Shown here: positions 3,331 to 60,840 of the stretch, one piece after another
How the letters are laid out: each line of letters starts with the position of its first letter
How positions within the stretch are numbered: position 1 is the stretch's first letter
Assembly (NCBI RefSeq): GCF_023701485.1
Contig: NZ_JAMQBK010000031.1
Coordinates: 1-64,000 of the forward strand
Source: Aporhodopirellula aestuarii
GTDB lineage: Bacteria > Planctomycetota > Planctomycetia > Pirellulales > Pirellulaceae
Direction of reading: 5' to 3'
DNA: 64,000 bases
The notes under the pieces: model-generated
Told to the model about the DNA's origin: nothing
Seen by the model: only the letters and a program-made list of their open reading frames with translations
The model's database searches: none
Translations under genes and position numbers: made by a program

Positions 3331-3464
3331 ACAAAATACTCCGTGTGGGCACGTCGACGTCGGCTCGACGCTGGAATAACTTGAGTCGATTTACCGATTT
3401 TGTGTGACTTCCGTCAAGGGAAGTGTGGATAGAAGCCAAACGTTTACTGCCGATTGAAAATCCC

Positions 3465-4172
3465 ATGGAAGACCTCGATATCCCCCAGCTTGCCGAATAC
3501 CTGCACGTTACCCCTGATCAAATCACCAAAATGGTGACTCGCGGCAATTTGCCTGGTCGCAAGGTCGGGGGTCAGTGGCGTTTCAACGAAGCCGAAATCC
3601 ACCACTGGCTCGAGGAACGGATCGGTTTGAGCGACCCCAACGAGCTGGACGAAGTCCGGCGGGTGCTGCACCGAAGCTCGGACACCCCCGCGCGAAAACT
3701 CAGTGAAATTTGCTCCGTCGATTTGATCGCCAACCCGTTATCCGCACGGACCCGCGGCAGCGTGATCCGCGGGATGGCCAACTTGGCCGCCACGACCGGG
3801 ATGCTGTGGGACGCCCCGGCGATGGCCCAAGCGGTGTCCGAACGCGAAAAATTGCATCCGACCGCGCTCGACAATGGTGTCGCGTTATTGCACCCCCGCC
3901 GCCCGCAGACCTCGATCCTGGCCGACTCCGTACTCGCGCTCGGGATTTGTCAGGCGGGATTGCCGTTCTCCAACCGGGGGCAATTGACCGACATTTTCTT
4001 CCTCATCTGCTCTTATGACGATTCGAGTCACTTGCGTATTCTCGCAAAACTCAGCCGGTTGGTTTCTGACGATGCGTTCCTCGATGGGCTGCGTTCGAGC
4101 GATTCGCCCGGCGACGCTTGGTTGATTTTGAAAGAAGCCGAAGCAGCCATTGATGAAAACATCACGCTCTAA
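3465..4172 (+). CDS. Excisionase-type HTH fused to a PTS EIIA (PtsN-like) domain
   Basis: The start is the ATG at 3465; an in-frame GTG at 3423 would add 14 residues that do not look conserved. Residues 1-55 are an excisionase/MerR-like HTH (I-P-Q-L-A-E-Y-L, then W-R-F, then W-L-E). Residues about 80-230 look like an EIIA domain of the PtsN/fructose type: NGVALLHPR matches the phospho-histidine segment, placing the acceptor at His143. In such families EIIA receives phosphate from HPr, so a phosphorylation-controlled DNA-binding protein is a reasonable inference. EI, HPr and a stand-alone EIIA are encoded at 53944-57159. The next gene starts inside this one (4153), which implies translational coupling. 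Confidence 0.8.
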   Translation: MEDLDIPQLAEYLHVTPDQITKMVTRGNLPGRKVGGQWRFNEAEIHHWLEERIGLSDPNELDEVRRVLHRSSDTPARKLSEICSVDLIANPLSARTRGSVIRGMANLAATTGMLWDAPAMAQAVSEREKLHPTALDNGVALLHPRRPQTSILADSVLALGICQAGLPFSNRGQLTDIFFLICSYDDSSHLRILAKLSRLVSDDAFLDGLRSSDSPGDAWLILKEAEAAIDENITL

Positions 4173-5127
4173 TTCACCGCCTTTCGCGCTCCTTCGGAGC
4201 CAGCAAGCGGCCGCTGGCGACGAGCAAGCCTTCGGCTGCGATCGACTGCTGTGGGTCGGCGATAACGAACACCGTCAAATGCGACCGGCTTGGCGAATCT
4301 GCCAAAAACATTGCGACACGATTGCAGTCCGCTATGGCATCGATGAAGCCCTGGAATCGCCACCCCGACAGATGCCCACCCACGTGATCGTGGCTCAAAC
4401 GAACCGTCACGAGCGAACGCGTTTGGCGATCGACGGCGTCGGCTACGCTCGTTTTCGTTCCCTGTATCCCGAAGCCGAAGTTCTCGTCGTACGCGGGCCG
4501 TTGGTCGCGTCGACCGTTCGTTTGCCCGAGTCACCTTCACCGCTTGCATCGTTAACGAAGCCCCGCATCGCGGCGAGTCCGGCGGATGCGAGATCCTGCG
4601 AGACGCCGATTTGGGTCGATTCGGTTTCCTCCGACGAAGCCCCCACATTCTTACCGCACTGGCTAACAAGTCAGAAACAAGCCGAATCCGGCGACGTGCG
4701 ATTGGCTACGGGGGAGTCCTCCGCAATTGAAAACGATTCGGATCAGCTGCATGAACCAACGCAGCCAATCGTCGGACCGATTGCCATCGTGGCATCGCGA
4801 TTTGCCGATGCCGAGAGTTATCTCGATGCGCTCGCGGGACTGTTGCACGACAGCGGGCGGTTGGAACCAATGATTCGGTGGCAGCGTGAGCTGACCCATC
4901 GAACGTCGAGTGGCTTTGCGACGGTTCTTTGGGACGAGTCGGCGGCTCCTGCGACGACGCCCGAGGATTGGCGAGAGCGTTGTGAGCGAGCCCCCGAGGC
5001 TCGTCACGTGTGGATGACCGGACTTGCCAACCTGGAGCAACGGACGGTGGCACGCGAGAACGGGATTCATAACGTGCTCGAAAAACCGGGCCGGCTAGAA
5101 TGTCTGATCGCCAGCCTCGCGTTCTAA
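4153..5127 (+). CDS. Unknown protein, possibly a degenerate response-regulator-like protein
   Basis: The reading frame begins inside the 3' end of the HTH-EIIA gene (ATG at 4153, TTG just before it at 4150), so the two are probably translationally coupled. The protein has about 324 residues. The N-terminal part has alternating beta/alpha character with an LLWVGD start, and a low-complexity middle follows. The C terminus (HVWMTGLAN through ENGIHNVLEKPG) recalls the end of a receiver fold, where a Lys precedes Pro, but I cannot point to a full acidic pocket. I do not recognise a named family. The coupling suggests it works with the EIIA regulator, perhaps as a partner or sensor. A 173-bp inverted-repeat element begins at its stop codon. 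Confidence 0.6.
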   Translation: MKTSRSNSPPFALLRSQQAAAGDEQAFGCDRLLWVGDNEHRQMRPAWRICQKHCDTIAVRYGIDEALESPPRQMPTHVIVAQTNRHERTRLAIDGVGYARFRSLYPEAEVLVVRGPLVASTVRLPESPSPLASLTKPRIAASPADARSCETPIWVDSVSSDEAPTFLPHWLTSQKQAESGDVRLATGESSAIENDSDQLHEPTQPIVGPIAIVASRFADAESYLDALAGLLHDSGRLEPMIRWQRELTHRTSSGFATVLWDESAAPATTPEDWRERCERAPEARHVWMTGLANLEQRTVARENGIHNVLEKPGRLECLIASLAF

Positions 5128-47345: not shown

Positions 47346-48350
47346 CTAAGCGTTGAGTTCGACGTCCGGGCTGTCGGCTACGTTTACCCAGACGTGCACG
47401 TGCGGAGCGCCTCGGTAGTGCCAGACAAACGCAGGCCCCTCTAGTCGCCAGTTATCCCAAACACCGTCATCGCCGATATCCTTGTCGCTATAAAACGCCA
47501 GATGACAGGCATCCAATCCGCCTTGTGTCTGCAAGCACGCCATCACTTCCGCTTGATCGGTGGAGCGATACATCTCGACGAGTGTCTTGAGTACCAGCTG
47601 CAAGTGTTCTTTCTGGTCCGATGACAATTCAGTAACCGGGAGCCCCGCAATCTCGCCGCTGCTGCCTTTAAATCCGACGGCTTGTTCGCGTGGTGTTTTC
47701 GGGAGCAAGGCTAGTTTTTGTTGTCGGCCATCGAGCATCTTGAATAGGTCATTTGCAGCGACGGCTTGATGCCAGAACACGTTCCCAGTGTGATTGGGTC
47801 CTTCGTTGAAGTCAGGTGCATGTCCATAGAACAGAGGACCACCGAACGCGACATGGTCCGCCGAGTTGCCGTCACAACGGAGAGTCATGTGACGGCCCGT
47901 CATGACCAATTCAAACTTGCCTTGACCGGGAGTTCCAAAAATCGCAATCGATTGCTCGTGTCCGAAACCGCCAGCGTCGTCTTCGAGTTGTTGGTAGTAT
48001 CGCTCGTGCCAAGACGGATCAATGATCGACTCGAATACCTTTGTGATCAGATCTCGTTGTTCATCGTTGTAGAAATCGGACACGATTTCGTGATTGGTGA
48101 TGTTCCAATTGTTTGCGACAAACGTTCTCAGGAGTCCACGTTTCTTGTCTCGGTGGTCCCAGTCAAAGCAAACTGCTTGCTTTTGTTTCTCACTCAGGGA
48201 TTCGTAAAGCAAACCCGTATACGATTCGGCTGATTGAACCGGCGTCGCCGAAGCAAGAAGATTGGTGGACGCAAGCAGTGGTCCCGCGCTGAGAGCGGCC
48301 GATGCAGTTCCTAAAAACTGACGACGATTGAAACTGAACTGGTCACGCAT
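47346..48350 (-). CDS. DUF3500 protein with a Tat-type signal
   Basis: From the ATG at 48350 the protein has 334 residues, with a twin-Arg signal (N-R-R-Q-F-L-G followed by a hydrophobic stretch). The body fits DUF3500: VCFDWDHRDKKR, NHEIVSDFY, FGTPGQGKFELVMTGRHMTLRC, FWHQAVAAN, and HVHVWVN at the end. DUF3500 proteins are of unknown function, often found with secreted enzymes. The gene is upstream of the sulfatase gene on the same strand. A co-acting role on an extracellular or periplasmic substrate is possible. Confidence 0.8.
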   Translation of the reverse strand: MRDQFSFNRRQFLGTASAALSAGPLLASTNLLASATPVQSAESYTGLLYESLSEKQKQAVCFDWDHRDKKRGLLRTFVANNWNITNHEIVSDFYNDEQRDLITKVFESIIDPSWHERYYQQLEDDAGGFGHEQSIAIFGTPGQGKFELVMTGRHMTLRCDGNSADHVAFGGPLFYGHAPDFNEGPNHTGNVFWHQAVAANDLFKMLDGRQQKLALLPKTPREQAVGFKGSSGEIAGLPVTELSSDQKEHLQLVLKTLVEMYRSTDQAEVMACLQTQGGLDACHLAFYSDKDIGDDGVWDNWRLEGPAFVWHYRGAPHVHVWVNVADSPDVELNA

Positions 48351-48630
48351 TGTTTTGACTCCCTGGTCCCAAAGAACGATCCGAAACACGACTTCAGTGT
48401 ATCACGTTTCAGAGCGCAATCCGAAGTTTGTTCGGTGAGACTCGAGTCAGGAAGCGGAGGCGGTACCCGGTTGCCGGCGCGTTTCAAAAGCTTAAAAGCC
48501 ACGCGTCTATTCACGCAAGACAATCGGAAGAGTCAAAGAACGAACTCAGCATCGATACCTGTCCACACATGGACATACACACCCTGAGCGGTTTGTGTCT
48601 TTGAGTTGCGTCACCGAAACCTGCCGGCAT
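48351..48630. other. Non-coding stretch downstream of the FecR-like fragment
   Basis: About 280 bp containing no convincing open frame. It lies between the DUF3500 start and the end of the fragment at 48631. Confidence 0.35.
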
Positions 48631-48834
48631 TCACGCCGTGAACCGCTTGTTGTTCACTGAATGCATCGGGCGACTGATTTGGAGCAACATCGCGTGCAGA
48701 TTTGTTTGTTGCCAGAATTCCTTTCTTGCAACCGGCGAACTCAACAACAACTGTTCCAGACTTTCCTTGGATTCCTGGGTAAGCCCGCCATCTAGATAGA
48801 GCCCGAGTAAGTGCTGAAGTTTTTCCATCTTCAT
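48631..48834 (-). pseudogene. N-terminal fragment of a FecR/anti-sigma-like gene
   Basis: From an ATG at 48834 the frame gives 67 residues. The sequence (LLGLYLDGGLTQESKE, LLLSSPVARKEF and NLHAMLLQ) matches the N-terminal helix region of planctomycete FecR/anti-sigma-like proteins. Normally such proteins then run on through a membrane segment and a long FecR or LamG domain, but here a stop comes at once. It therefore looks like a truncated relic. No ECF sigma gene is detectable next to it. An independent small protein cannot be excluded. Confidence 0.55.
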
Positions 48835-49383
48835 CGAGATTCCTTTCTTTGTGTGCAGGGCTCCGCCCCGGGAAATCGGCCCGCGTTGGCAATTCGTCTC
48901 TCGGAAATGCCATCCAAAACACCGACGAAGTCGACCACCTTCCATAGATATCGTCTGTCGCCAACATCGACTAAACGCCGATTGAGCTCTTTTGTTTGGC
49001 TCGATCGGCAACCATCGTCGACCCCGTCGCGACCGTACGACACGCACAAACGGCGTAACCCGTCTTTGCGAAAAATCGTAGACGAACGTCGCCGATGTCT
49101 GATGTTTTGCGAATGAACATCGCATCGACGCCATCTCGGGGAGAGTTTGGGTCCAGCCATTCGAGGAGCTCCGGGGGTAGAGTGATCTCAGTGCAATGAA
49201 ATGAGGGCATGCACGCAAATCTGAACTACCCCATCGAAGGGTTTCCGAATATTTACTGCCATGGTTGTTCTCGGCGACGACGTGCGCGGTTTATGGCGGG
49301 CATGTGAGGCTTGTCTGAGGCGAATTTTCGCAAATAGCGAGGATAAAAACCGGCCCCACTCCCCCCCTTCGGCATGTGGTGCG
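48835..49383. other. Decayed, apparently non-coding stretch
   Basis: About 550 bp with no convincing gene. A minus-strand frame at 48971-49210 and longer overlapping frames lack recognisable character. It may hold remnants of the gene to which the FecR-like fragment belonged. Confidence 0.4.
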
Positions 49384-50217
49384 TTAGCGTCGTCGAAGCA
49401 GCAGGAGGTCAGCGGCGAGGGTCACAGACATTGCTTCGACCGTTTTCAACCGTTCCTGTTGCGAGTGCCGGACGCCTCGATACGTCATAGCGAGTGCATC
49501 CAGAATGGCGTCTGGTGCGAGTTCCACCTTGAGTTCCCAGTGGGTTTGCTCGGCGCACCGGAGCCCAGCGGCCTCCATTTCTTCGACGACCAATTCCCAC
49601 CGCCGCCGTCGATGTCCGGACTGCTGCACCTTTTCTCGCAGCTCGATCAGATCCTCTTCCCCCGGCACAGCGATGATGCACACCCCATCTGGAGCGAGCA
49701 CCCGTTGAATCTCGGCGACAGGTCGGCGGCCGAAGAGCGAGATCACTCGATCCACGCTCGCGTCCGTCGCCGGCAGTTCGCGGTCGGCGTTAGCGAGCAC
49801 CCAGGTTGCCTCCGGCCAACGCCGGGCAGCTAGCTTCATGGCAGTTTTGGAGAGATCGATGCCGCAGTAGCCTTCAGCTTCGTTCGCGAACAAGGCAGGA
49901 CCGAAGAAGCCTTCTCCGCAACCAAGGTCGAGCGTACGCGGCGGCGAGTCAGCACCGGACCGTGTTGGAATTGCGATCCAAGGCGATAGCGTCTGAACTA
50001 AACCGGCGGCGTGCCCGCGTGCGAGCCAGCGGTGCCTCGCCATCACGGCCTCGGTGCAATCGCCCGGCTGTTTTGACTTTCGATCCTGGGGCTGCGTCAG
50101 ATTCCAGTAGCCCTGTTTGGCACGATCGAAGTGGTGTCGCGCCTCACAGGTGAGACCAGAGTCGGAGGGTACCAAGATATTTTGGCAATCTCGGACGGTG
50201 CAGCGTAATTCAAACAT
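49384..50217 (-). CDS. RlmA-like 23S rRNA (guanine-N1)-methyltransferase
   Basis: The 277-residue protein follows the E. coli RlmA pattern. An N-terminal Cys region (LRCTVRDC, LTCEARHHFD) precedes AKQGYWNL, then K-Q-P-G-D and a run like ARHRWLARGH. The SAM fold follows: DLGCGEGFFGPAL, GIDLSKTAMKLA, VLANADRELP, VISLFGRRP. RlmA methylates 23S rRNA at a guanine near position 745 in E. coli. The Cys spacing differs a little from E. coli, so zinc binding is uncertain. It lies 239 bp after the Ntn hydrolase gene on the same strand. Confidence 0.8.
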   Translation of the reverse strand: MFELRCTVRDCQNILVPSDSGLTCEARHHFDRAKQGYWNLTQPQDRKSKQPGDCTEAVMARHRWLARGHAAGLVQTLSPWIAIPTRSGADSPPRTLDLGCGEGFFGPALFANEAEGYCGIDLSKTAMKLAARRWPEATWVLANADRELPATDASVDRVISLFGRRPVAEIQRVLAPDGVCIIAVPGEEDLIELREKVQQSGHRRRRWELVVEEMEAAGLRCAEQTHWELKVELAPDAILDALAMTYRGVRHSQQERLKTVEAMSVTLAADLLLLRRR

Positions 50218-50456
50218 CGGAGCATTCTAAACGAAGCGAAACCAAGGGGAAGTCTTGGGCCGTGTTTATCACTCGGGTACATGCGGGTCCGCAACAGCGA
50301 ATGCCCATCGAGCATCATTGCGGATGCCGGCGACGCGGTGCCAGACGACACAGACGAGAGACCATCGCACCGGTCAGGTTTCGGGGACGACGCGAGTAAT
50401 CGCCTGATGCCGAGTTGCCAATTGCAAGTTGGGTCCAGGCCGGTGCATGCTCTGGT

Positions 50457-51497
50457 CTATTTGATCAAAGCGGGTTCGAGGGCTTCGCCGTAGTTGAGGA
50501 CCATCTGCTTGATCGTCGATCGTACCAGGCCAGCCGGGAGGATCGCGTCGAACGCGTCGTCCACGATTCGGCTGTTCGCTTCTCGGGTGAACTGCTGCAA
50601 GTGTTGCTGCACGTCGCCTTCGTGGTCCGCGTTGATGTCGACGCAGAGCACCTCAGCGTTTTCCTCGAACTGAAGTTCCTTGAGATCGATCCGACGGAGT
50701 TTGGGAGCGACTCGTGTTCGAAACGAGATGCGAAGCCGCTCGGGTTCGTAGACCAGGTTCCACTGCGTGTGGGACTGGGCGACTCGGTGTAATGCCGCAA
50801 TCGCGTCATTGACGGGCGCGTCGGAGTCTTTCGTCTGAGACAACAACTTGGCCTGCATGAACCTTCGTTCGCTGCCGTTGGTTGGCCGCTCTCGTTCGCA
50901 GGCTTGCCATGATCGTTCCCAGGTAGAATTGGCAAGAATGCACGCCGTGACCGGATCGTGTTGGACGATCGGTTTGCCATCGAGATATTCGATGATCGCG
51001 ACGTCACCACTCGCGTCGGTCACGAAGTAGTGCACCTTTTCGAGCATCGCGATGAAAGGTGTCGGCGTGATTACATCGAGGCTCTCAATCACATCCGCAA
51101 CGCTGGCGGACATATCGAGCTGGTACTGAACCCACTGCACCACATTGACCGACGCGGTGTCATCGCCGGCATTAGGAAAGGCAGCGTCGCCGAGTTGAAG
51201 CAGGTCGACGGTGAGGCCTTTTTCGTTCATGCCCGCGAAGGGGATTTCGCGACCGAACTGGGCGAACGAGACGCTACCATACCGCGAGACCCACTTTGCC
51301 GGGTTGACCGGGGTGATGGCGGTTTTTTCGATCCCGCGTGGGTTGACGATCAAGAGTCCTCCGCCAGTTCCCCAGTCATGATTGCGGGCGACAATCAGTT
51401 GATCGGCGAGTTTCATCCGCATGACGGTGCACGCCGCAGCCGGGTGAGCGACTGCGGCGACCGCGAGAATCAATCCGATGCAAAGGAATCTTCTCAT
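50457..51497 (-). CDS. Secreted Ntn-hydrolase (choloylglycine/penicillin V acylase family)
   Basis: The 346-residue protein has a signal peptide (IGLILAVAAVAHPAAA) ending directly before Cys23. In the family this Cys is the N-terminal nucleophile revealed by processing, and signal cleavage here would expose it. RNHDWGTG at about 38-45 contains the conserved Asp. Other family segments are GMNEKGLTVDLLQL and ACILANSTW. The family hydrolyses amide bonds, as in bile salts, penicillin V or N-acyl homoserine lactones; the substrate here is unknown. It lies 43 bp after the RNase E/G gene. Confidence 0.85.
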   Translation of the reverse strand: MRRFLCIGLILAVAAVAHPAAACTVMRMKLADQLIVARNHDWGTGGGLLIVNPRGIEKTAITPVNPAKWVSRYGSVSFAQFGREIPFAGMNEKGLTVDLLQLGDAAFPNAGDDTASVNVVQWVQYQLDMSASVADVIESLDVITPTPFIAMLEKVHYFVTDASGDVAIIEYLDGKPIVQHDPVTACILANSTWERSWQACERERPTNGSERRFMQAKLLSQTKDSDAPVNDAIAALHRVAQSHTQWNLVYEPERLRISFRTRVAPKLRRIDLKELQFEENAEVLCVDINADHEGDVQQHLQQFTREANSRIVDDAFDAILPAGLVRSTIKQMVLNYGEALEPALIK

Positions 51498-51540
51498 CGA
51501 CGGAATGCCCCAGGGAAGGTGACTCAGGAGGTTGGATAAC

Positions 51541-53145
51541 TCAGGAGTCGATTTCGACTCGTTCGCCGTGACTGTCCCGGCAATCGACTTCGAGGTGTTC
51601 GGGGAACAACCCTTCGCTGCCGAGGATCTGCACGGTCATGTTACCGACGTCTTCCATTTCAGTTACGGCACGGCGTTTCTTGTTGTTCAGGAACGCGGCG
51701 ACGGCGTCGTTGACGCGGACGGTGACTCGCACAATGTGCTTGTTCTTGACCGCCAGAGCGAGCATGCGAACAACTTCGATCGACATGCTCTCGGGGGTTT
51801 TGACGAGACCCCGGCCTTTGCAGCACGGGCAATCTTGATAGATGCTGCGTTTGAGGCTGGGGCGAATCCGTTGACGCGTCATTTCGATCAAGCCGAACGG
51901 ACTCGTCCGCAGAATTTTGGTACGGGCACGATCCTTAGCCATGGCGTCCCGCAGCACTCGCTCGACTTTGCGACGATAACTTTCTTTACGCATGTCGATG
52001 AAGTCGTTGACGATCACGCCGCCGAGGTCGCGCAGACGAAGCTGCCGCGCGATTTCTTTGGCGGCTGAGACGTTCAATCGGAACGCGTTTTCATCGGCCG
52101 AAGCGTTGCCCCGGAAGTTTCCGCTGTTGACGTCAATCGCAACCAAAGCCTCGGTGGGGTCGATCACGATCGATCCACCGTCTTTGAGTTGGACTTGGCG
52201 TTGATTGATTTTCACAATCTCTTCTTCGAGATTGTATTTATGGAACAGCGGGACGGCACCGTCGTAGAACTTCAAGCGATCGACGACGCGTGGCATGACG
52301 CTTTTGAGGAAGTCGCGTGCCTTGTTATACGACTCTTCTTCGTCAATCAGGATGTGATCGATGTCATCGCTATAGATATCGCGAATCGTCCGGATAATCA
52401 GATCGCTCTCTTCGTAGATTTCGCCCGGTTCGGTTGTTGTTTCGATACGCCGCGCGATCGCTTTCCAGAGACGCAGGAGGTAGTCCATGTCGCGGTGCAG
52501 TTCATCTTCGCTGCGACCGGCACCGGCGGTGCGGACGATGAACCCAAGTCCCTTGGGCGGGTTACAGGCGTGAAGTGCTTTCTTGAGACGCTTGCGATCG
52601 TCTTCATCTTCGATCTTACGGCTGACTCCGACGCGGGAGAGCGCTGGCATCAAAACAAGGTATCGGCCGGGGATCGAGATGTATGTGGAGAGAGTGGGGC
52701 CTTTGGTGCCAATGCCTTCTTTGATGACTTGGACGAGTACTTCGTCGCCGCGTTTGAAGATCTCTTGAATGGGTGGCTTGATCCGTGGTCGTCCGCCTTT
52801 GAAGACTCGTGAGCTACCGCGTCCGCTTTCACGGTTACGCGCGGCCGAAGCGGCGGCCATCTCGTCGGACTCCCGCATGATTTCTTCAGGGTCGTAACCA
52901 CCTTGGCGAAAGTATTGTGGTTCGACGTCACTGATGTGGAGGAACCCGTTTCGTCCGACGCCGAAGTCTACGAACGCCGCTTGGATACTCGGTTCCAAGT
53001 TGACGATTTTTCCTCGGTAGATATTGCCTGCGAACGCTTCGACGCTTTTTCGCTCCACGTAAAGTTCTTCAAGCACATTGTCTTCGACCACCGCGATGCG
53101 GCTTTCTTCAGGCTGAAGCACATTGATGAGCATTTCACGTTTCAT
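51541..53145 (-). CDS. rng: Ribonuclease E/G family endoribonuclease
   Basis: The 534-residue protein has an S1 domain (about 35-170), the AIDVNSG block with Asp338 and the VNDFIDM block with Asp381; these are the metal-binding catalytic pair. The CPCC zinc-link (Cys439, Cys442) follows. A stretch of about 50 residues (75-128, basic and Glu-rich) is inserted in the S1 domain. No long C-terminal scaffold is present, so it resembles RNase G or short RNase E. It cuts single-stranded RNA in mRNA decay and rRNA maturation. The TIGR03936-type gene precedes it. Confidence 0.92.
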   Translation of the reverse strand: MKREMLINVLQPEESRIAVVEDNVLEELYVERKSVEAFAGNIYRGKIVNLEPSIQAAFVDFGVGRNGFLHISDVEPQYFRQGGYDPEEIMRESDEMAAASAARNRESGRGSSRVFKGGRPRIKPPIQEIFKRGDEVLVQVIKEGIGTKGPTLSTYISIPGRYLVLMPALSRVGVSRKIEDEDDRKRLKKALHACNPPKGLGFIVRTAGAGRSEDELHRDMDYLLRLWKAIARRIETTTEPGEIYEESDLIIRTIRDIYSDDIDHILIDEEESYNKARDFLKSVMPRVVDRLKFYDGAVPLFHKYNLEEEIVKINQRQVQLKDGGSIVIDPTEALVAIDVNSGNFRGNASADENAFRLNVSAAKEIARQLRLRDLGGVIVNDFIDMRKESYRRKVERVLRDAMAKDRARTKILRTSPFGLIEMTRQRIRPSLKRSIYQDCPCCKGRGLVKTPESMSIEVVRMLALAVKNKHIVRVTVRVNDAVAAFLNNKKRRAVTEMEDVGNMTVQILGSEGLFPEHLEVDCRDSHGERVEIDS

Positions 53146-53224
53146 AAATAAATTCCCCTCATTAGGGTGTTGAGATCAGCTGGATGCCGCCATCCCTCCA
53201 AGGGTGGCCGCATGGACGCCGACG

Positions 53225-53947
53225 TTACGAGTGTTTCAATTCGCCCTTCAGATCCATACCGGTACGAACGAGCGTCGCACCTCTTTCGGGCCAGTCACTC
53301 AAACCGAGCAGATCCAGAATGTCTTGAATTTTCAAAGACGCTCCGTCTCCAGTCACGATCCGAACGACGAGTTTGTCTGTTTGCAGATCGAGTAAGGGCA
53401 GTTGCGTGGCCACGTGGGCGGTCACCGTTTTCCCTTTCCGCTCGATCGATACGGTTTCTTCTTGCTTGATTCGATTGATGGCTTGTTCAACACGGGCCGA
53501 TTCTTCGTCGTCGAAATCGTCCGGCAGTGTGACGGCATAATTCATCGCCGCGAGTTGCGACTTGCCGTCGGCGAGGTCGACGCGGGAGACCGAGTTGATG
53601 GTAAGCCCGGGCTGGTCATCGAGCTGTAATCTCTCCAGCAGTTTTTCAGCCGGCCAGTCTTCACGGAGTTCGAGGTCGAGTACTTCGTCGAGACTTTCCA
53701 CGCCAAGAGACAACGCCGACGGAAATTGCATCCGCGGTTTCGGATTGAACCCTTCCGTCATGGAAAATGGCAGCTCGGCGCGGCGTCCGATACGTTCCCA
53801 AAGATTGGCCAGGTCCCGATGGCTGATCCAACGAAGCAGCCCGGTTTTGGCGAATCGAACGCGGTAGCGATAGCGAGGTGTGCCGACCGGTTGAAGGTTT
53901 GGCGACGGGTTGCTGTTGGAGCGAGGATGGCGTCGGGAGCGACTCAT
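53225..53947 (-). CDS. TIGR03936/DUF2344 radical SAM-linked protein
   Basis: The 240-residue protein has the family blocks RYRVRFAKTGLLRWISHRDL, FNPKPRMQFPSALSLGVES and DEVLDLELRE. TIGR03936 proteins are usually next to, or fused with, a B12-binding radical SAM protein and near RNase E/G; here the RNase gene is next but no radical SAM gene is in the window. Their role is undetermined, possibly in tRNA or translation-linked modification. The start ATG overlaps the ptsI stop by 4 bp, so it is coupled to the PTS enzyme. A polar Arg/Ser/Asn tract opens the protein. Confidence 0.85.
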   Translation of the reverse strand: MSRSRRHPRSNSNPSPNLQPVGTPRYRYRVRFAKTGLLRWISHRDLANLWERIGRRAELPFSMTEGFNPKPRMQFPSALSLGVESLDEVLDLELREDWPAEKLLERLQLDDQPGLTINSVSRVDLADGKSQLAAMNYAVTLPDDFDDEESARVEQAINRIKQEETVSIERKGKTVTAHVATQLPLLDLQTDKLVVRIVTGDGASLKIQDILDLLGLSDWPERGATLVRTGMDLKGELKHS

Positions 53948-55689
53948 TGCATCACCAATTCGGGAGCCAAGTCGGCGAGACGGTCAAGAAGATACAAATC
54001 CACGTCACGTGCCGATTCGAGTTTGCGCACTCGTTCGGCGATCGCTTCACACTGCTCGATGGACACGTTGCGGATCGCCTTTTTGACCCGCGGTAACGCC
54101 GACGGTGGCACGCTCAAGTTGCGAACCCCCATACCAAGCAGCAACAACGCGCGGGCGGGATTGCTACTCATTTCACCGCACACGCTGATCGGCGTTTGTG
54201 TTTGGTCGGCCACATCAATACTGGCTTGGATCAACCGCAGCACCGCCGGATCGCTTGACTGGTACAAGTCGGCAACGGATTCGTTGGATCGATCAACCGC
54301 AAGGGTGTACTGCGCCAGATCGTTGGTGCCGATGCTAAAAAAGTCAACTTCGCAAGCGAAGTGATCGAGCATGATCACCGCGGCAGGCACTTCTACCATC
54401 ATGCCGACGGGCAAGTCACTGCGGAAAGGAATGCCAGCTTCTTTCAAATCTTCGGCGACGACGTTGAGCAGCATGCGGGCTTGGCGGAGCTCCGCGATCG
54501 TCGTGATCAAAGGAAACATGACGCGAACGTCGCCGAGCGCGGCGGCTCGCAGGACGGCGCGGAGCTGCGGGCGGAAGAGATCGAGATTGCGAAGCGACAG
54601 GCGGATGCTGCGTAGCCCCAGGAAAGGGTTGTTTTCCTCCTGGCTGCGTTTGCCGTGCCCCATTTTATCGGCACCGAGATCGAGTGTTCGGATGACGACA
54701 GGGCGCCCATTCATCTGCTCGATGACTTCGGCGTAGGCTTGGTAATGGTCCTCTTCGCTGGGTTCCTCATCCGAGGAAAGGTACAGGAATTCGGTGCGGT
54801 AGAGGCCGATGCCGTCAGCCCCGCGTTGCAGGCAGGCGGCGGTTTCGTGCGGGAACTCGATGTTTGCGTTGAGCGAGATTCGGGTTCCGTCGGTGGTGGT
54901 CGCCGGCAGCTGGCTCTGCTGTGCCAGTCGCTGCGCCAGAGAACGGCGGTACTCAGCCCGTTGGCGATAGTGTTCGAGAACTTCTTCGGTCGGGTCGATA
55001 ATCAATCGGCCGCGATCTCCGTCGACGATGACGCAGTCGGCGCCCGCGATAACGGGGAGAAACTCCCCGATTCCGACCACGGCAGGGATTTCGAGTCCCT
55101 TGGCAACGATCGCGGTGTGACCGCCAGGGCCGCCGATTTCGGTGCAGAAGCCTTTGACGAATTCCCGGTTGAGCCCCGCGGTCTCGCTCGGAGTTAGCAT
55201 GCGGGAAAGAACGATGACCGGTTCATTCAGGTCCTGCAGCGGTTGCCGGGTAACGGCACCGAGCTGCGTAAGCAATTGCCGCTCGATATCGAGTACGTCT
55301 TGGGCACGATCGGCCAAGAAGGGGTTCTCGAGTTTCTGCAGCGCCGAGGCGTAATTGTGTAGCACGCCGCTGACGGCGAACGCGGCAGATTGCCGTTCTT
55401 CGCCGATACGTTTTTCCAGTTCGCTGTGAAGCCGCGGGTCGTGCAGCATCTGCAGCTGAGCTGCGAAAATATCGCCGGTCTGTCGACCGGCCGTTGCGGT
55501 GGTTTCGAGCCGGCTCTGCTCGAGCTGTTCCGAGACGACATCAACGGCCTCGCGCAGACGCGCGAATTCATCGTCAACGTCCGCCGCGGGGACGATGCAC
55601 CGCGGGATTCGATAGCCATCAGCGTCGAGCACCAAGGCGGACGCAATGGCAACGCCCGGTGAAACGGGAATGCCTTGTAGTTCCAGCAT
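53944..55689 (-). CDS. ptsI: PTS enzyme I (phosphoenolpyruvate-protein phosphotransferase)
   Basis: From the ATG at 55689 the protein has 581 residues, the usual length for sugar-type EI. GIPVSPGVA opens the swivelling domain. The active-site His is His191 in GGPGGHTAIVAKG, the aromatic R-T-L-D-L-G-A-D-K block lies at about 334-342, and Cys504 in SVCGEMSSNP is the catalytic Cys. There is no GAF domain in front, unlike the PtsP form of EI. EI moves phosphate from PEP to HPr. HPr is 499 bp upstream, and EIIA lies further up. The DUF2344 gene overlaps its stop. Confidence 0.95.
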   Translation of the reverse strand: MLELQGIPVSPGVAIASALVLDADGYRIPRCIVPAADVDDEFARLREAVDVVSEQLEQSRLETTATAGRQTGDIFAAQLQMLHDPRLHSELEKRIGEERQSAAFAVSGVLHNYASALQKLENPFLADRAQDVLDIERQLLTQLGAVTRQPLQDLNEPVIVLSRMLTPSETAGLNREFVKGFCTEIGGPGGHTAIVAKGLEIPAVVGIGEFLPVIAGADCVIVDGDRGRLIIDPTEEVLEHYRQRAEYRRSLAQRLAQQSQLPATTTDGTRISLNANIEFPHETAACLQRGADGIGLYRTEFLYLSSDEEPSEEDHYQAYAEVIEQMNGRPVVIRTLDLGADKMGHGKRSQEENNPFLGLRSIRLSLRNLDLFRPQLRAVLRAAALGDVRVMFPLITTIAELRQARMLLNVVAEDLKEAGIPFRSDLPVGMMVEVPAAVIMLDHFACEVDFFSIGTNDLAQYTLAVDRSNESVADLYQSSDPAVLRLIQASIDVADQTQTPISVCGEMSSNPARALLLLGMGVRNLSVPPSALPRVKKAIRNVSIEQCEAIAERVRKLESARDVDLYLLDRLADLAPELVMQ

Positions 55690-56188
55690 CGCGATCGATG
55701 CTTTTTGAATCCAATTCGTGTCGGTCTGTTGGGTCGCCTTGATCAGGCGGGTCAACAGGCGGTCAGGTGCAGTATCCGCTTGGGAAACCCGTATTCGCTC
55801 CGTTCAACGGTGCCCAGTCGGCGATGACGCCAATCGGGGCTGCCAATTGCATGTTGAAAACGACGATGTGATTCACCGGTCGATCTTCCCAAATCAACAT
55901 TCCCGTGGTGTGGCGATGGGGCCGACGGGTGTGCAGCAGAGGGGAGGAGACGACTCGTTATCAACACGGCCGTCGGTGTGACGGAGCGGAAGCGTGGGTT
56001 TATGTGTGGGTAGAGGTCCTGTTGAAATTGGAAGCAAAAAGCATCCTGTGATCTCTTGTAAAAAGTAGGTTGTCAGGGAGCGTTCCGGGGAACGCAGTTG
56101 CGTCGTCCTGGAGCATTCGGGACGGTTATCATGTCGACGAGTGGACCAGGTGGATGTGTCAAAACGGGGTGAGCCAAACCGTTCGTGG
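55690..56188. other. Non-coding gap between ptsH and ptsI
   Basis: About 499 bp lie between ptsH and ptsI on the same strand. No tRNA or clear small gene is visible; minus-strand frames here lack character. The gap is large for an operon and may contain a ptsI promoter. Confidence 0.45.
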
Positions 56189-56500
56189 TTACTGAGACGG
56201 CTGACCCAATTCGTGGAACCCGAGTTCGAACAGTTCACCGATTGCCGCGAGGGCTGCTTCGGCGTCGTGCCCTTGGGCAGTCAATTGCAGTTCGGTCCCC
56301 TCGGTTGCGCCCAGCGTCAGCAAAGACAAAATGCTGCGGCAATCAACTTTCTCAGAACCTTTTTGGATCATAATGGTCGAATCAAACCCCTCCGCACATC
56401 GAACAACCAGGTCGGCTGGGCGGGCATGCAACCCCTGCGGGTTGATGATAACCACAGTTTTTTGAAGCTGCGTTGGCTCGTCGGGCGGGTTCTGGTTCAT
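56189..56500 (-). CDS. ptsH: HPr-family phosphocarrier protein
   Basis: The 103-residue protein has GLHARPAD with the phosphorylated His at residue 25. VDCRSILSLLTLGA follows, whose Ser51 is where Ser46 would be in Gram-positive HPr. EI at 53944-55689 would phosphorylate it, and it would pass phosphate to the EIIA proteins here. A Gln/Pro-rich N terminus (about 15 residues) precedes the core. It lies 179 bp after ptsN on the same strand. No HPr kinase or sugar permease is in the window. The retained Ser leaves open an HPr-kinase type of control. Confidence 0.93.
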   Translation of the reverse strand: MNQNPPDEPTQLQKTVVIINPQGLHARPADLVVRCAEGFDSTIMIQKGSEKVDCRSILSLLTLGATEGTELQLTAQGHDAEAALAAIGELFELGFHELGQPSQ

Positions 56501-56679
56501 ATGTTCACCAGGTGGCCGGGTGATGGCGGGATTTTGACCGATATGGCGCCGAAGGGGAATCCCTTTGGCGTCGTGGATCGCTGATTTTTCGGGATAGACA
56601 TCGTCGGAGCGGAGCCCAGGAATAGGGTCAATAGTTGGCCGGAGTCGCTGGGGGTCGGCTGTGCGGCGTTGTCTTCGGT

Positions 56680-57159
56680 TTAGCCAGCAGCGAATTGGTT
56701 ATCGTCGGCTTCCTGCAGCAATTGCTGGATATCGTCTGGCGTCTTGCTCTGCTTGAGGAATCGGCAGAACGACTCGTCGCGAAGTTGTCGCGAGATGTTT
56801 TCCAGGGCCCGGAGGTGATCGCCGGGGCGTTCGGGGGGGCTGATAAGGAGGAAGAACAACTGGACGCGTTCTCCGTCGAGGGAATCAAAGTCGACACCGA
56901 CTTCACTGACACCGACGGTTCCGACGAGTTCGGGGACGCTGGGGTGCTTGGTGTGGGGGACGGCGACGCCACGGCCGATGCCGGTGCTGCCGAGTTCTTC
57001 CCGTTTCATGATTGCGGCAATGATGTCGTCGCGTTGGTCAGCGGCGATTTCACCGGCGTCCAGCAGCGATTGGACGAGCTCGTCGATCACAGCCTCTTTG
57101 GTGGTGGACTGCAGGTTGGCGCGGATTGCGTCTTTCTTGACAAAGTCAGAGAACTTCAT
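56680..57159 (-). CDS. ptsN: PTS IIA-like nitrogen-regulatory protein
   Basis: The 159-residue protein begins FSDFVKKDAIRAN, and the EIIA motif GRGVAVPHTKH carries His69, the phosphorylated residue. LGSTGIG precedes it and LFFLLISPP follows, both typical of PtsN. PtsN regulates potassium transport, nitrogen or carbon responses in various bacteria, not sugar uptake. It lies 64 bp after hpf and 179 bp before ptsH on the same strand, similar to proteobacterial rpoN operons, in which hpf, ptsN and an HPr also occur. No rpoN is visible here. Confidence 0.92.
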   Translation of the reverse strand: MKFSDFVKKDAIRANLQSTTKEAVIDELVQSLLDAGEIAADQRDDIIAAIMKREELGSTGIGRGVAVPHTKHPSVPELVGTVGVSEVGVDFDSLDGERVQLFFLLISPPERPGDHLRALENISRQLRDESFCRFLKQSKTPDDIQQLLQEADDNQFAAG

Positions 57160-57223
57160 AGCAAAGAGTTATGTCTTGGGTTGGGATGGAATGTATGTGG
57201 ATGTCGGGGCGAAGGGAGTTGTT

Positions 57224-57568
57224 TTACTCGTCGTCGCCGACATCTGCTGTTTCAACGTGTTTATGGTCTGCCGTTCGGTTGCCCGTTTTACGTGCTTTGA
57301 GCTTGCGTAATTGCTGCTCTACCTTGGGAATCGCGTTGTCTAACGCCGCGAGTACGTTGCTCGCTTCGGCTCGAGCGATGGAATCTTCAGCGTGCTCGGC
57401 GGAAACCTTGATTTCGACGACTGGTTTGTCCAACTGTTTCAAGTCGATGGTGACCTCGATCGCGTTGATCCGGTCATACAATCGCCGAAGCCTGATCGCC
57501 TTTTCCTCAATCAGTTCCTGATCCCCAGGCTGAAGAGTGCCGTGGCGGGCTGAAACATTCACCTGCAT
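57224..57568 (-). CDS. hpf: Ribosome hibernation promoting factor (short HPF/RaiA family)
   Basis: From the ATG at 57568 the protein has 114 residues; 17 upstream in-frame residues are unlikely to be translated. It begins MQVNVSARHGTL, and the LEEKAIRLRRLYDRI-type helix and the strand VEIKVSAEHAE follow. HPF-type proteins bind the small ribosomal subunit and inactivate ribosomes in stress or stationary phase. The absence of a long C-terminal domain makes it the short type. It is the first gene of the hpf-ptsN-ptsH series. The dyads at 57661-57698 lie about 100-130 bp upstream. Confidence 0.92.
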   Translation of the reverse strand: MQVNVSARHGTLQPGDQELIEEKAIRLRRLYDRINAIEVTIDLKQLDKPVVEIKVSAEHAEDSIARAEASNVLAALDNAIPKVEQQLRKLKARKTGNRTADHKHVETADVGDDE

Positions 57569-58062
57569 GTTCAAACTCGTTTGATTAGAGAATCCGCTCG
57601 TCAATATTCCCGCACGCATGGTCGAAGCCGGCTCACGGTCGGTGGTCTCTAGCGGTCAGAGAACATCGATGTTCATCTGAAATTGATCACGGATCAATAG
57701 TGTGATGACCGCGGGAGGGTAAACTACAGCCTAGCCGAATCCAGGCGTCTCGAATAGCGATACTAGGGGTCATTTTTGCTCACGAGGGGAAATTCTGTCG
57801 CAGGTGGATGGTGAGATTGCGAGAAATGGGGCAGTCTTGGCAATATTTCTCAGAACTTTTCTCCGCCGCGTCCCCATGACAAAACGGACTGCAGCGGATA
57901 ACCTTCGTGATCTATTTCATCCTGGCTCCGTGATCGTTTGATTTCCCCCTCACTCCGCCGCTTCGCCTGTCGGGCAGTGGCTGACTCGTAAGGGGCGAAT
58001 CCGATCCCGCTTCGGGTGGATTTTCCATGAACCCCATCCACTAACCCCCACAGCTGAGATTT
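57569..58062. other. Divergent leader between hpf and the Lys-rich gene
   Basis: About 490 bp between divergent genes. It holds the two dyads at 57661-57698 and otherwise no tRNA, riboswitch or convincing gene. It should contain the promoter of the hpf-pts group and that of the Lys-rich protein. Confidence 0.5.
57661..57698. promoter_or_regulatory. Two tandem palindromes upstream of hpf
   Basis: GAACATCGATGTTC (57661-57674) is a perfect 14-bp palindrome. ATTGATC-ACG-GATCAAT (57682-57698) is a perfect 7-bp dyad with a 3-bp spacer. They are 7 bp apart and lie 93-130 bp before the hpf ATG. They may be operators for the hpf-pts group or for the divergent gene. Confidence 0.4.
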
Positions 58063-58353
58063 ATGGCTCGGAAGGTCGTCAATCGGCAGGCAAAAGCAGC
58101 CGAAGCAGATGCTGCTGAAAAGCTGGCAGCCGAGGTCAAACGCAAGAAAGCCTCCAAACGCAAAACCAAAAAGGCTGCCGCTGATGTGCGGCTGCGCCTC
58201 TATTGGGGCGTTTTCAGCCAAAATCTGAAGCGGGTCGCCGTTTTTGATTTTGACAAGCAATCCGAGGCCGTTAAGCGAGCCGAAGAATTGAGCAAAGGAG
58301 GCAAGTCGCCTCACTTTGTCCAAAAAGTCAAAGAAGAGATCAAGCCGGAGTGA
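58063..58353 (+). CDS. Small Lys-rich protein of unknown function
   Basis: The 96-residue protein has a basic first half (Lys/Arg/Ala-rich, residues 1-40). The second half (RLYWGVFSQNLKRVAVFDFDKQSEAVKRAEEL) is mixed, with a WGVF-like strand. I do not recognise a family, though the form recalls short conserved planctomycete proteins. Its stop overlaps the agmatine deiminase start (GTGA, 4 bp), so the two are translationally coupled. The basic stretch could bind nucleic acid. It was noted as a real gene because of the coupling and codon use. Confidence 0.65.
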   Translation: MARKVVNRQAKAAEADAAEKLAAEVKRKKASKRKTKKAAADVRLRLYWGVFSQNLKRVAVFDFDKQSEAVKRAEELSKGGKSPHFVQKVKEEIKPE

Positions 58354-59450
58354 GTCCGGGCGAACCCCATTCTTCTGCGGGAGAAGGCGCGCCTTCCCGG
58401 CCACTGCGACGGTTCCCCGCGCAGTGGGAACCCTGCGACGCCGTCTGGCTGGCTTGGCCGCACAACCTCGAAACGTGGCCTGGCCATTTCGAAGGAGTCC
58501 CCGAAGCTTTCGCGGTCTTTGCCCACGCGATCGCGGAGTCAACGCCCGTCAAAATTCTCGCGAGTGGGGACCTCGCCGGCCAGTGCCGCGAAATCCTGCG
58601 ATTGACCGCGGCGGGCCGAAAACCACAGCAATTGCCGCGAGAAATCGAAATCGTGGACATCCCCACGAACGATTGCTGGATCCGTGACTACGGGCCGACG
58701 TTCGTCCACGAAGGCGACTCGCTATTGGCAGTGAAATGGCACTTCAATGCCTGGGGTGGGAAATACTTTCCTCACGACCTCGATGCTGCCGCGGGAGCAC
58801 AGATCGCCCGCGCCGCAGGGCTGAGGCTCTTGCGGGCAGACCTCACGCTGGAAGGCGGTGCCCTCGAAACCGATGGTGCGGGCCGATTGCTTCTGCACGC
58901 CGCGTGTGTACTCGACCCCGCCCGGAACCCTGGCTTGACGGCCCAGCAGTGCGCCGAGCGTATGCACCAATATCTCGGTGTGGAAGAAATTCTCTGGATC
59001 GATGGTGGACTGATCCCCGGCGATGATACCGATGGGCACATCGATCAGATTGCCCGGTTTGTCGATCGTGAAAATGTCGTTGTCGCGGTTGCCGAAAATA
59101 ATGAAGTGCCGTTTGCCGAGGCGCTCGAAGCCAATTTTCGTCAGGTCAAGTTATGGGGCACCGAAACGAACCCGGGCGTGACGGCGCATCGCCTGCCGGT
59201 CCCGCCGCCGCGAACGATCGACGGGCATAGCGTTCCGCAGAGCTATTGCAATTTCCTTCGGCTCGGGCCAGATCGGATTCTCGTTCCCACGTTTGCGGTG
59301 CCGGATAGCGATGACCGGGCACTCGGCATTTTGCGCGATCTCTGCCCCGGGGTAGATATCCAGGGGATTCCATGCGAGAAGATTGCCTGGGGACTGGGTG
59401 CGTTGCACTGCGCGAGCTGTCATCAACCCGCCGTGCCCCGCATCGGCTAG
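58350..59450 (+). CDS. aguA: Agmatine deiminase / peptidyl-arginine deiminase-family protein
   Basis: The 366-residue protein starts at a GTG at 58350. The family blocks are DCWIRDYGPTF (Asp113), LEGGALETDG, DTDGHIDQIARF (His230) and GALHC (Cys354, the nucleophile). Agmatine deiminase converts agmatine to N-carbamoylputrescine in putrescine synthesis. Motif fit is strong, but the agmatine-specific role over a related deiminase is inferred. The GTG start is in the stop of the upstream Lys-rich gene. The mgtE start is 40 bp downstream, so the three may be co-transcribed. Confidence 0.88.
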   Translation: MSPGEPHSSAGEGAPSRPLRRFPAQWEPCDAVWLAWPHNLETWPGHFEGVPEAFAVFAHAIAESTPVKILASGDLAGQCREILRLTAAGRKPQQLPREIEIVDIPTNDCWIRDYGPTFVHEGDSLLAVKWHFNAWGGKYFPHDLDAAAGAQIARAAGLRLLRADLTLEGGALETDGAGRLLLHAACVLDPARNPGLTAQQCAERMHQYLGVEEILWIDGGLIPGDDTDGHIDQIARFVDRENVVVAVAENNEVPFAEALEANFRQVKLWGTETNPGVTAHRLPVPPPRTIDGHSVPQSYCNFLRLGPDRILVPTFAVPDSDDRALGILRDLCPGVDIQGIPCEKIAWGLGALHCASCHQPAVPRIG

Positions 59451-59490
59451 AGACGCCCTATCGCATTCATTCCATCTCTGGAACTTTGAC

Positions 59491-60840
59491 TTGGTCAACA
59501 CACTTTTCCTGCCTGAAATTCGCGAGATGCTCGCTTTTGAGCAGGAGGGCGAACTGCGGGAATTTTGTGTCGCTTTGAATCCGGGGCGGACAGCCGAGTT
59601 CATGGAGGGACTCGACGACCATGAGGTCTGGAGGGTGCTGCAATACGCGGAGGCCGACCGGCGAGCGGAGATTTTCAGTTACTTCGACGAAAGCCGTCAA
59701 CTCGCGATGCTTGCCAACGAGCCCGCGGCCGAAACGGCAATCCTGATTGAAGAGATCCCCGAGGATGATCGAGTCGACTTGATTCAAGGTCTGCCGTCCG
59801 AAGCGGTTGATGGGATCTTGAAATTGCTGCCGGCGAGCGAACGCCGGAACATCGAGCGTTTGCGTTCATTCGCCGAAGGCACCGCGGGCGCCCTGATGAC
59901 GACCGAGGTGGCCAAGTTAGCCGAACGGCTGACGGTCGCTGAAGCTTTCGATGAGCTTGCCAAACAGGCAAGCGACCTGGAAACGATCTATTATCTGTAC
60001 GTCGTTGACGATAACAATCTGTTGCGCGGAATCGTTTCCACACGGCAATTGGTGTCATCGTTAAAAAACAAATCGATCACGCTCGGCCAGATGATGGAAA
60101 CCGATGTCGTTGTTGCCCTCGCCGGCGAGGACCAGGAATCGGTTGCTGAGAAAGTCGAGCGGTTCAACCTGCTGGCGATCCCCGTGATCGACTCGGGCCG
60201 CCAGATGCTCGGCATTATCACGCACGATGACGTGATCGACGTCGTCCGTGAAGAATTGACCGAAGACGCGCAGCGGATCGCCGCGGTCGCGCCCTTGGAA
60301 GGTGATTTTCTGCAGATCGGATTGATGAGCCTTTCTTACAAGCGAGGGCTGTGGTTAACGATCCTATTTTTTGCCGCGTTGCTGACCGCGTTTGCGCTGC
60401 GTCACTACGAAGCGGAATTAGCGGTGCATGGTTGGTTGGTTTGGTTTATCCCGCTGATCATCAGTTCGGGCGGTAACTCAGGCAGCCAATCAGCGACACT
60501 GGTCATCACAGCGATGACCGGCGGCGAAGTGAAGCTCACTGATCTCCCCAAGGTGCTTTCACGCGAAGTTTGCGTGTCGTTATTGTTGGGTGGGTTTTTG
60601 TCGCTGATCGGTTTTATGGTCGCGATCTTTGTCGCGCCAACAGCGCTGGCAGCCACGGTGATTCCGATCACGTTGGTGTCGGTCATCGTTTGCGGGTGCC
60701 TTTGCGGGGTGACGCTGCCAATCACCTTTAAGCGACTGGGGCTGGACCCGGCATTGATGAGCAATCCGTTCGTGGCGGGGATCGTCGATATTCTTGGGAT
60801 TGTGATTTACATCAACGTCGCCCGGATGGTGCTGGGCTAG
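59491..60840 (+). CDS. mgtE: MgtE-type magnesium transporter
   Basis: From the TTG at 59491 the protein has 449 residues, the usual MgtE length; the frame extends to an ATG at 59383, but those residues overlap aguA and look unconserved. The order is an N domain (about 1-130, LNPGRTAEFMEGLDDHE), two CBS domains (about 135-260) and a five-helix membrane domain. The membrane region holds ISSGGNSGSQSA and PALMSNPFVAGIVD, whose Asp is in the ion-selective pore. MgtE is a Mg2+ channel gated by cytoplasmic Mg2+. Confidence 0.93.
   Translation: MVNTLFLPEIREMLAFEQEGELREFCVALNPGRTAEFMEGLDDHEVWRVLQYAEADRRAEIFSYFDESRQLAMLANEPAAETAILIEEIPEDDRVDLIQGLPSEAVDGILKLLPASERRNIERLRSFAEGTAGALMTTEVAKLAERLTVAEAFDELAKQASDLETIYYLYVVDDNNLLRGIVSTRQLVSSLKNKSITLGQMMETDVVVALAGEDQESVAEKVERFNLLAIPVIDSGRQMLGIITHDDVIDVVREELTEDAQRIAAVAPLEGDFLQIGLMSLSYKRGLWLTILFFAALLTAFALRHYEAELAVHGWLVWFIPLIISSGGNSGSQSATLVITAMTGGEVKLTDLPKVLSREVCVSLLLGGFLSLIGFMVAIFVAPTALAATVIPITLVSVIVCGCLCGVTLPITFKRLGLDPALMSNPFVAGIVDILGIVIYINVARMVLG

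Follow-up and report, generated by a model that had tools for sequence, protein, structure and literature searches.

What is the phosphorelay of a phosphotransferase system (PTS) for, when its genes lie beside those of a ribosome hibernation factor and an RNA-decay enzyme? The question is raised by a 64,000-nucleotide stretch of the genome of the planctomycete Aporhodopirellula aestuarii (positions 1 to 64,000 of contig NZ_JAMQBK010000031.1, assembly GCF_023701485.1), hereafter the window, on whose minus strand hpf, ptsN, ptsH, ptsI, a gene of family TIGR03936 and rng follow one another from position 57568 down to 51541. We propose, with moderate confidence, that this cluster encodes a transport-free, nitrogen-PTS-like relay with several enzyme IIA (EIIA) read-outs, placed together with hpf and the sole RNase E/G gene so that translation and RNA turnover follow the relay. 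The gene order is beyond chance, being found again in 37 family loci and partly in distant families, and the linkage of hpf, the PTS genes and rng is real and predates the genus.

Gene content of the cluster

The genome holding the window comprises 9.07 Mb in 165 contigs. A first-pass annotation had read eight genes on this strand, the last two being an Ntn hydrolase and an RlmA-type gene downstream of rng, and all eight were confirmed by position and, at family level, by matches to Pfam and NCBIfam. The hpf gene (57224-57568, on the minus strand like the rest of the cluster) starts at the second ATG (57568) and encodes a short ribosome hibernation-promoting factor with the S30AE domain only, which matches PF02482 and the HPF/YfiA family model TIGR00741 (44.4 bits against a cut-off of 40.9). 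It is followed by ptsN (56680-57159), encoding a free EIIA of the EIIA-Ntr/fructose type with His69 (PF00359, E 1.2e-32), and by ptsH (56189-56500), whose product HPr carries His25 and Ser56 (TIGR01003, 88 bits) and is the sole PF00381 match of the genome. We take Ser56 to be the Ser46 position. Enzyme I (EI), with His191 and Cys504, is encoded by ptsI (53944-55689; TIGR01417, 567.8 bits). Its start is likely the ATG at 55689 and less so the TTG at 55755, because the alignment with most relatives begins at residue 17-24 of the longer frame; in that longer frame the two residues would be His213 and Cys526. With EI numbered from ATG 55689, the four residues first pointed out as intact (His191, Cys504, His25 and His69) are indeed in place. 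The TIGR03936/DUF2344 gene (53225-53947) scores 145.4 bits against a cut-off of 71.9, and rng (51541-53145) encodes an RNase E/G family protein that lies above the cut-off of TIGR00757 (494.4 against 325.95 bits) and under those of both the RNase E and the RNase G equivalog models. The genes are separated by 64 bp (hpf-ptsN), 179 bp (ptsN-ptsH), 499 bp (ptsH-ptsI, from ATG 55689) and 79 bp (TIGR03936-rng), with gaps of 43 and 239 bp further downstream, and the 4-bp overlap of ptsI and the TIGR03936 gene described at first is present in the window.

Conservation of gene order in Planctomycetota

The gene order was followed in the window, in 38 further stretches of its own family, in 10 of family f3 from the same class and, elsewhere in the phylum, in at least one stretch from each of 54 other families, and all were annotated by means of profiles built on the proteins encoded in the window. 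Where a genome had several HPr genes, one locus was taken, and a single spirochaete locus served for comparison outside the phylum. Own-family counts refer to the 37 stretches with HPr, two others being without it. Within the family, hpf and ptsN lie upstream of ptsH in 37/37 loci and rng lies downstream in 35/36, L127 being the miss and the stretch of L113 ending early. TIGR03936 was found in 24 of 36 loci (L127 not counted), and ptsI in 34/37, a figure without weight as those 34 comprise the window and loci picked for their EI match. The rng gene is retained also where EI or TIGR03936 is gone from the cluster (L125, L126), and it occurs in nine of the ten f3 loci. In a set of 20 genomes chosen by hand (19 from the family, one from the order), which is not a random sample, rng and ptsH are no more than 8 kb apart in 18, the exceptions being G387 and G167.

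Outside these groups, counting the first locus per family in strict windows, hpf is kept in 42/48 families, ptsN in 37/48 and ptsI in 34/49, along with PilM in 20/49, YvcK in 12/48 and TIGR03936 in 10/43. All six genes from hpf to rng occur together in 33 loci from seven families (f1, f6, f44, f49, f71, f75 and f76). A search for the same order in other planctomycetes had been named earlier as a check on the cluster, and the order does recur, in the family itself and in part in distant ones.

One RNase E/G gene (PF10150) and no more was found in every one of 48 genomes, that of A. aestuarii included, and in its family this single gene nearly always adjoins the relay genes. In many other families pilM-N-O-Q follows ptsI, and in some of them TIGR03936 and rng come after the secretin; type IV pilus genes pilM-N-O with a secretin gene were seen 3' of ptsH/ptsI in L134, L136, L137, L141-L144 and others. 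In 13 of the 54 other families (L135, L137, L138, L142, L143 and others) ptsN and ptsH are separated by a YvcK (CofD-family) gene. In a tree of 68 RNase E/G rows, with three short rows dropped (L137, L141 and L143, all pil-containing loci), 58 of the 60 pil-free rows form one supported set with no pil row inside, leaving L158 and L167, both long branches, outside it; the tree is rooted at its midpoint and does not fix the direction of pil gain or loss.

Enzyme II families and EIIA proteins

No match to PF02378 (EIIC), PF02302 (EIIB) or PF00358 (glucose EIIA) was found in the A. aestuarii genome, the search being confined to these three enzyme II families. The earlier statement that no sugar EIIB or EIIC is present stands for these families and reaches no further. 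Among the 20 hand-picked genomes PF02302 occurs in none and PF02378 in one, at G315:C2:1273391-1274308, in a genome whose cluster is without ptsI. HPr (PF00381) gives one match per genome in all 20, always adjoining a PF00359 match (ptsN), and is present in 191 of 199 genomes of the phylum. HPr kinase (PF07475) was found in 0/20 genomes by a search that also missed the Bacillus subtilis control, in which hprK presumably exists.

The genome of A. aestuarii holds three PF00359 domains, namely PtsN, a fusion of a helix-turn-helix (HTH) domain to EIIA, and an EIIA that forms the tail of a Na+/H+ exchanger. The HTH_17-EIIA fusion (3423-4172, plus strand; PF12728 and PF00359) has 249 residues with His157, is found in 20/20 genomes and is likely a DNA-binding output protein of the relay. 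Across 90 aligned EIIA rows comprising PtsN, HTH-EIIA and the antiporter domain, four columns are invariant, among them that of the phospho-accepting histidine. Several EIIA carriers, namely PtsN, HTH-EIIA and the EIIA-tailed cation/proton antiporter, probably form the end of the relay, which looks branched and is very probably regulatory. A regulatory role had been read from the locus at first, and it is supported by the absence of the three tested enzyme II families and by the identity of the three PF00359 proteins. In Escherichia coli, unphosphorylated PtsN inhibits a K+/H+ antiporter, according to the passage on it in PMC11808508, and by analogy the antiporter-fused EIIA may be a hard-wired counterpart of this control.

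That the relay instead feeds a sugar transporter elsewhere, of an enzyme II family outside the three searched, is very improbable. The restriction of the own-genome search to three families and the EIIC of G315 speak for it; against it, all three PF00359 domains of the genome are accounted for by PtsN, HTH-EIIA and antiporter-EIIA, and planctomycetes harbour no PTS transporters according to the pertinent part of PMC2405797.

Further arrangements of these domains were observed. Besides the Na+/H+ exchanger fusion (L206), EIIA is joined in relatives to a bicarbonate transporter (L214), to an amino-acid permease that has a Usp domain (L217) and to a CNNM/CBS protein (L231), and the three fusions of the relatives each keep the PH motif. 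In families f44 and f75 (L160, L179, L187-L190) HPr and EI share one open frame, about 680-718 residues long, and a second enzyme I, 34-41% identical, lies away from the cluster in many family genomes (L232 and others). The HTH-EIIA gene is overlapped by a gene without known family (4150-5127, plus strand), which encodes 325 residues without a Pfam match and adjoins the HTH-EIIA gene in 10 of 19 HTH-EIIA loci of relatives, these being near relatives; by eye, the end of its product looks like a response-regulator receiver.

TIGR03936 and its radical-SAM partner

The first-pass annotation had singled out the link of RNase E/G and TIGR03936 to EI as the unusual part of the locus. The linkage of hpf, PTS and rng is borne out, whereas EI and TIGR03936 are no special pair, and TIGR03936 tracks the radical-SAM family TIGR03960. 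The window protein is 87% identical to its counterpart in Rhodopirellula rubra and 85% to that in Rhodopirellula sallentina. TIGR03936 is missing from 12/36 family loci, 11 of which keep both EI and rng, and none was found in 16 whole genomes of family f3. Its absence was established genome-wide, by single-sequence search, for G121 and G205, and within the fetched stretch alone for G349, G395, G407 and G387. Of 24 family loci, 5 have a start allowing the 4-bp overlap with ptsI, three of these being from the same genus, and the nearest other TIGR03936 starts, as chosen by the analyst, lie from -1 to +233 bp. A special coupling of EI and TIGR03936 through this overlap was rejected, since the overlap is possible in so few loci and TIGR03936 is lost where EI and rng stay.

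TIGR03960, in turn, was found in 14/14 genomes with TIGR03936 in the stretch and in 0/6 without it. In A. aestuarii it lies on another contig than TIGR03936 (G000:C144:55530-57293; 592.7 bits against a cut-off of 462.3), where it neighbours a secretin-like gene (L205, G000:C144:50000-64000). In the spirochaete, one protein carries both a TIGR03936 part (by tblastn) and a radical-SAM part (by eye). From this distribution TIGR03936 looks like a separate module working with TIGR03960.

A structure model of TIGR03936 was built from a five-sequence alignment (mean pLDDT 78.4, pTM 0.47). In Foldseek, six of its seven matches at E <= 0.001 were Pus1 or PUS10, with TM scores of just 0.23-0.34, and in VIA-align the Z of TruA was 8.3 across 89 residues, while that of an unrelated acetolactate synthase subunit was 7.6. 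The relevant passage of PMC7955657 gives DUF2344 with PseudoU_synth_1 as one Pfam split of a pseudouridine synthase domain. The modelled protein perhaps has a pseudouridine-synthase-like fold and, because of these matches and that passage, we tentatively suggest that it is the RNA-binding subunit of a radical-SAM RNA-modifying enzyme.

The ptsH-ptsI gap

The gap between ptsH and ptsI (55690-56188, minus strand) spans 499 bp and, in an alignment of four genomes of the genus, keeps a block of about 60 bp (about 56077-56013) within otherwise variable sequence. The core 11-mer of this block had a two-mismatch match in 2/10 loci of other genera and was not found in these ten loci with one mismatch or fewer. 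The block may be a promoter or leader of ptsI, and a promoter of its own is possible for ptsI because the 499-bp gap holds this conserved block. An Rfam scan of positions 48000-60000 gave no match, and a scan for transcription signals, which was not informative, returned one promoter-like site against 3.0 expected and 18 terminator-like sites against 11.3 expected.

Proposed role of the cluster

On the reading that we favour, the genes belong to an old planctomycete cluster with the order hpf-ptsN-(yvcK)-ptsH-ptsI-(pilMNOQ)-(TIGR03936)-rng. Phosphate would flow from phosphoenolpyruvate (PEP) to EI, HPr and EIIA, and the phosphorylation state of HPr, by analogy with the nitrogen PTS (PTS-Ntr), would report PEP and energy or nitrogen status. 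This state would be read out by free PtsN, by the HTH-EIIA transcription factor, which would set a transcription response, and by the EIIA-tailed cation/proton antiporter. Encoding the relay with the ribosome-hibernation factor and the sole RNase E/G would lead to their co-expression, such that hibernation and RNA decay follow the state of the relay. TIGR03936 would stand apart from this, in a module perhaps concerned with RNA, together with the radical-SAM protein TIGR03960, whose gene is unlinked.

Several points weigh against this proposal. The 499-bp gap between ptsH and ptsI, with its conserved block, suggests at least two transcription units in the genus. In the other families just 13/43 loci have rng no more than 7 kb away from ptsH, and whole stretches contain rng in 18/54 and TIGR03936 in 12/54, where several distant loci had been picked with TIGR03936 known nearby and pil-bearing stretches often stop short of where rng would lie. 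The rng gene is away from the cluster in G387, G167, G137, G130, G095 and G077, the cluster itself is without EI in three relatives (G407, G315 and G387), and the A. aestuarii genome has four further EI matches. To these come the narrow range of enzyme II families searched, with one EIIC in the relative G315, and the finding, in the part of PMC13232886 concerned, that E. coli PtsN was a negative control that did not bind RNase E, whereas RapZ bound it.

Many of the same observations would suit a regulatory PTS whose cluster is an inherited old housekeeping block, in which no regulation connects hpf and rng with the relay. TIGR03936 and the pil genes vary within the block, rng lies elsewhere in the six genomes just named and is close to ptsH in a minority of distant loci, the ptsH-ptsI gap is large, and E. 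coli PtsN leaves RNase E unbound. We nevertheless judge this explanation rather unlikely, as hpf, ptsN and ptsH stay together in every family locus and rng in all but one, even where EI or TIGR03936 has gone, and a similar pairing of hpf and ptsN occurs in the rpoN operons of proteobacteria, as outlined in PMC13104625.

The relay could also act by contact, PtsN or HPr, phosphorylated or not, binding RNase E/G, HPF or TIGR03936 and switching its activity. Such direct control is suggested by the adjacency of the genes in the family and in several distant ones, and there is a precedent in E. coli RapZ, which binds RNase E and whose gene shares the rpoN operon with hpf and ptsN, as the respective passages state (PMC13232886, PMC13104625). 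The negative result for E. coli PtsN stands against it, planctomycete interaction data were not met in the literature, and we hold it to be improbable. The claim of the first-pass annotation that the relay acts on translation and RNA-decay proteins gained no support from that E. coli result either, and it stays something that we infer.

The most far-reaching reading, to which we give little credence, is that the transport-free PTS is a dedicated growth/dormancy switch. In it, phosphorylated PtsN or HPr would directly set HPF and the sole RNase E/G, HTH-EIIA would govern transcription and EIIA-tailed transporters ion balance, and TIGR03936, as a TruA-like RNA-binding subunit, would form with TIGR03960 an RNA-modifying enzyme tied to RNase E/G. 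If this were true, the proteobacterial link of hpf-ptsN-rapZ to RNase E would be a relic of one and the same ancestral association.

On the favoured proposal of a transport-free relay co-encoded with hpf and rng, the cluster may couple protein synthesis and RNA turnover to energy status. The conserved cluster with hpf and the sole RNase E/G, together with HTH-EIIA in all 20 genomes, makes a role of the planctomycete PTS testable, with ribosome dimers, mRNA half-life, HTH-EIIA binding sites and cation transport as read-outs, and RNA is the suggested function class for the TIGR03936-TIGR03960 pair.

Neighbouring genes

Downstream of rng lie the CBAH-type Ntn hydrolase gene (50457-51497, minus strand; PF02275) and the gene for an RlmA-like methyltransferase (49384-50217, minus strand; PF21302 and methyltransferase domains), both of which had at first been counted with the system. 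This inclusion was not borne out. Among 40 stretches, the Ntn hydrolase occurs in the window and in L089-L091 of the same genus only, and the RlmA-like gene in the window and L089 only; seen in neighbours of the genus alone and in three further stretches at most, both were rejected as members. The 5' side of hpf is occupied by a divergent open reading frame of 96 residues without a Pfam match and by a PAD_porph gene.

Comparison with known systems

A regulatory PTS had already been proposed for planctomycetes, so that this idea of the first-pass annotation is very probably right without being new. Comas et al. (2008) reported genes for group R enzyme I (EI-R) in Planctomycetes, found no PTS transporters there and proposed a regulatory role (PMC2405797); the likeness lies in the phylum and the transporter-free PTS, and the relevant parts of that paper do not describe the cluster, hpf, rng or TIGR03936. 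PTS-Ntr homologs in Planctomycetales are recorded in the pertinent section of a 2026 review (PMC13104625), and the corresponding part of PMC3162934 does not name planctomycetes.

The closest known arrangement is the PTS-Ntr of proteobacteria with its rpoN-hpf-ptsN-rapZ-ptsO operon, which, as described in the section of PMC13104625 on it, shares with the planctomycete cluster an EI-HPr-EIIA relay and an hpf gene near ptsN and an HPr gene; it has no enzyme II, and in A. aestuarii none was found of the three enzyme II families searched. The two differ in that no rpoN lies next to hpf in the window (rpoN elsewhere in the genome was not searched for) and in that the planctomycete cluster includes EI, contains RNase E/G itself and not the RNase adaptor gene rapZ, and may carry TIGR03936 and pil genes. 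The proteins differ as well. The window EI has three EI domains only, without a GAF domain, and scores 398 bits with PRK11061 against a cut-off of 583; the window EIIA is under the PtsN equivalog TIGR01419 (89.2 against 138.7 bits) and the window HPr under the NPr equivalog NF008146 (53.8 against 119 bits).

Where yvcK lies between ptsN and ptsH, as in the 13 of 54 planctomycete families and in 0/37 own-family loci, the cluster resembles a B. subtilis operon that contains yvcK and crh, the latter encoding what we take to be an HPr-like protein. That operon, yvcI-yvcJ-glmR(yvcK)-yvcL-crh-yvcN, holds the YvcK gene and crh together, and its YvcJ is called a RapZ homolog; as presented in the passages of PMC6171935 concerned, it is without hpf, ptsN, EI and RNase E/G.

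HTH-EIIA has a possible parallel in Chlamydia ptsN_2, described in the relevant entry as a 'PTS IIA protein + HTH DNA-binding domain' (PMC5723314), which likewise joins HTH and EIIA in one protein and is likened to it by annotation alone. The pair of TIGR03936 and TIGR03960 is itself a known one, and both members are present in A. aestuarii; here, however, they lie on separate contigs, with TIGR03936 between EI and rng. No account of an hpf-pts-TIGR03936-rng cluster or of planctomycete HTH-EIIA was found in the searches made of the open-access literature. As far as those searches show, the link to rng, TIGR03936 and HTH-EIIA is what is new relative to the regulatory PTS already proposed, and the planctomycete cluster may offer a wider setting for the proteobacterial link of hpf-ptsN-rapZ to RNase E.

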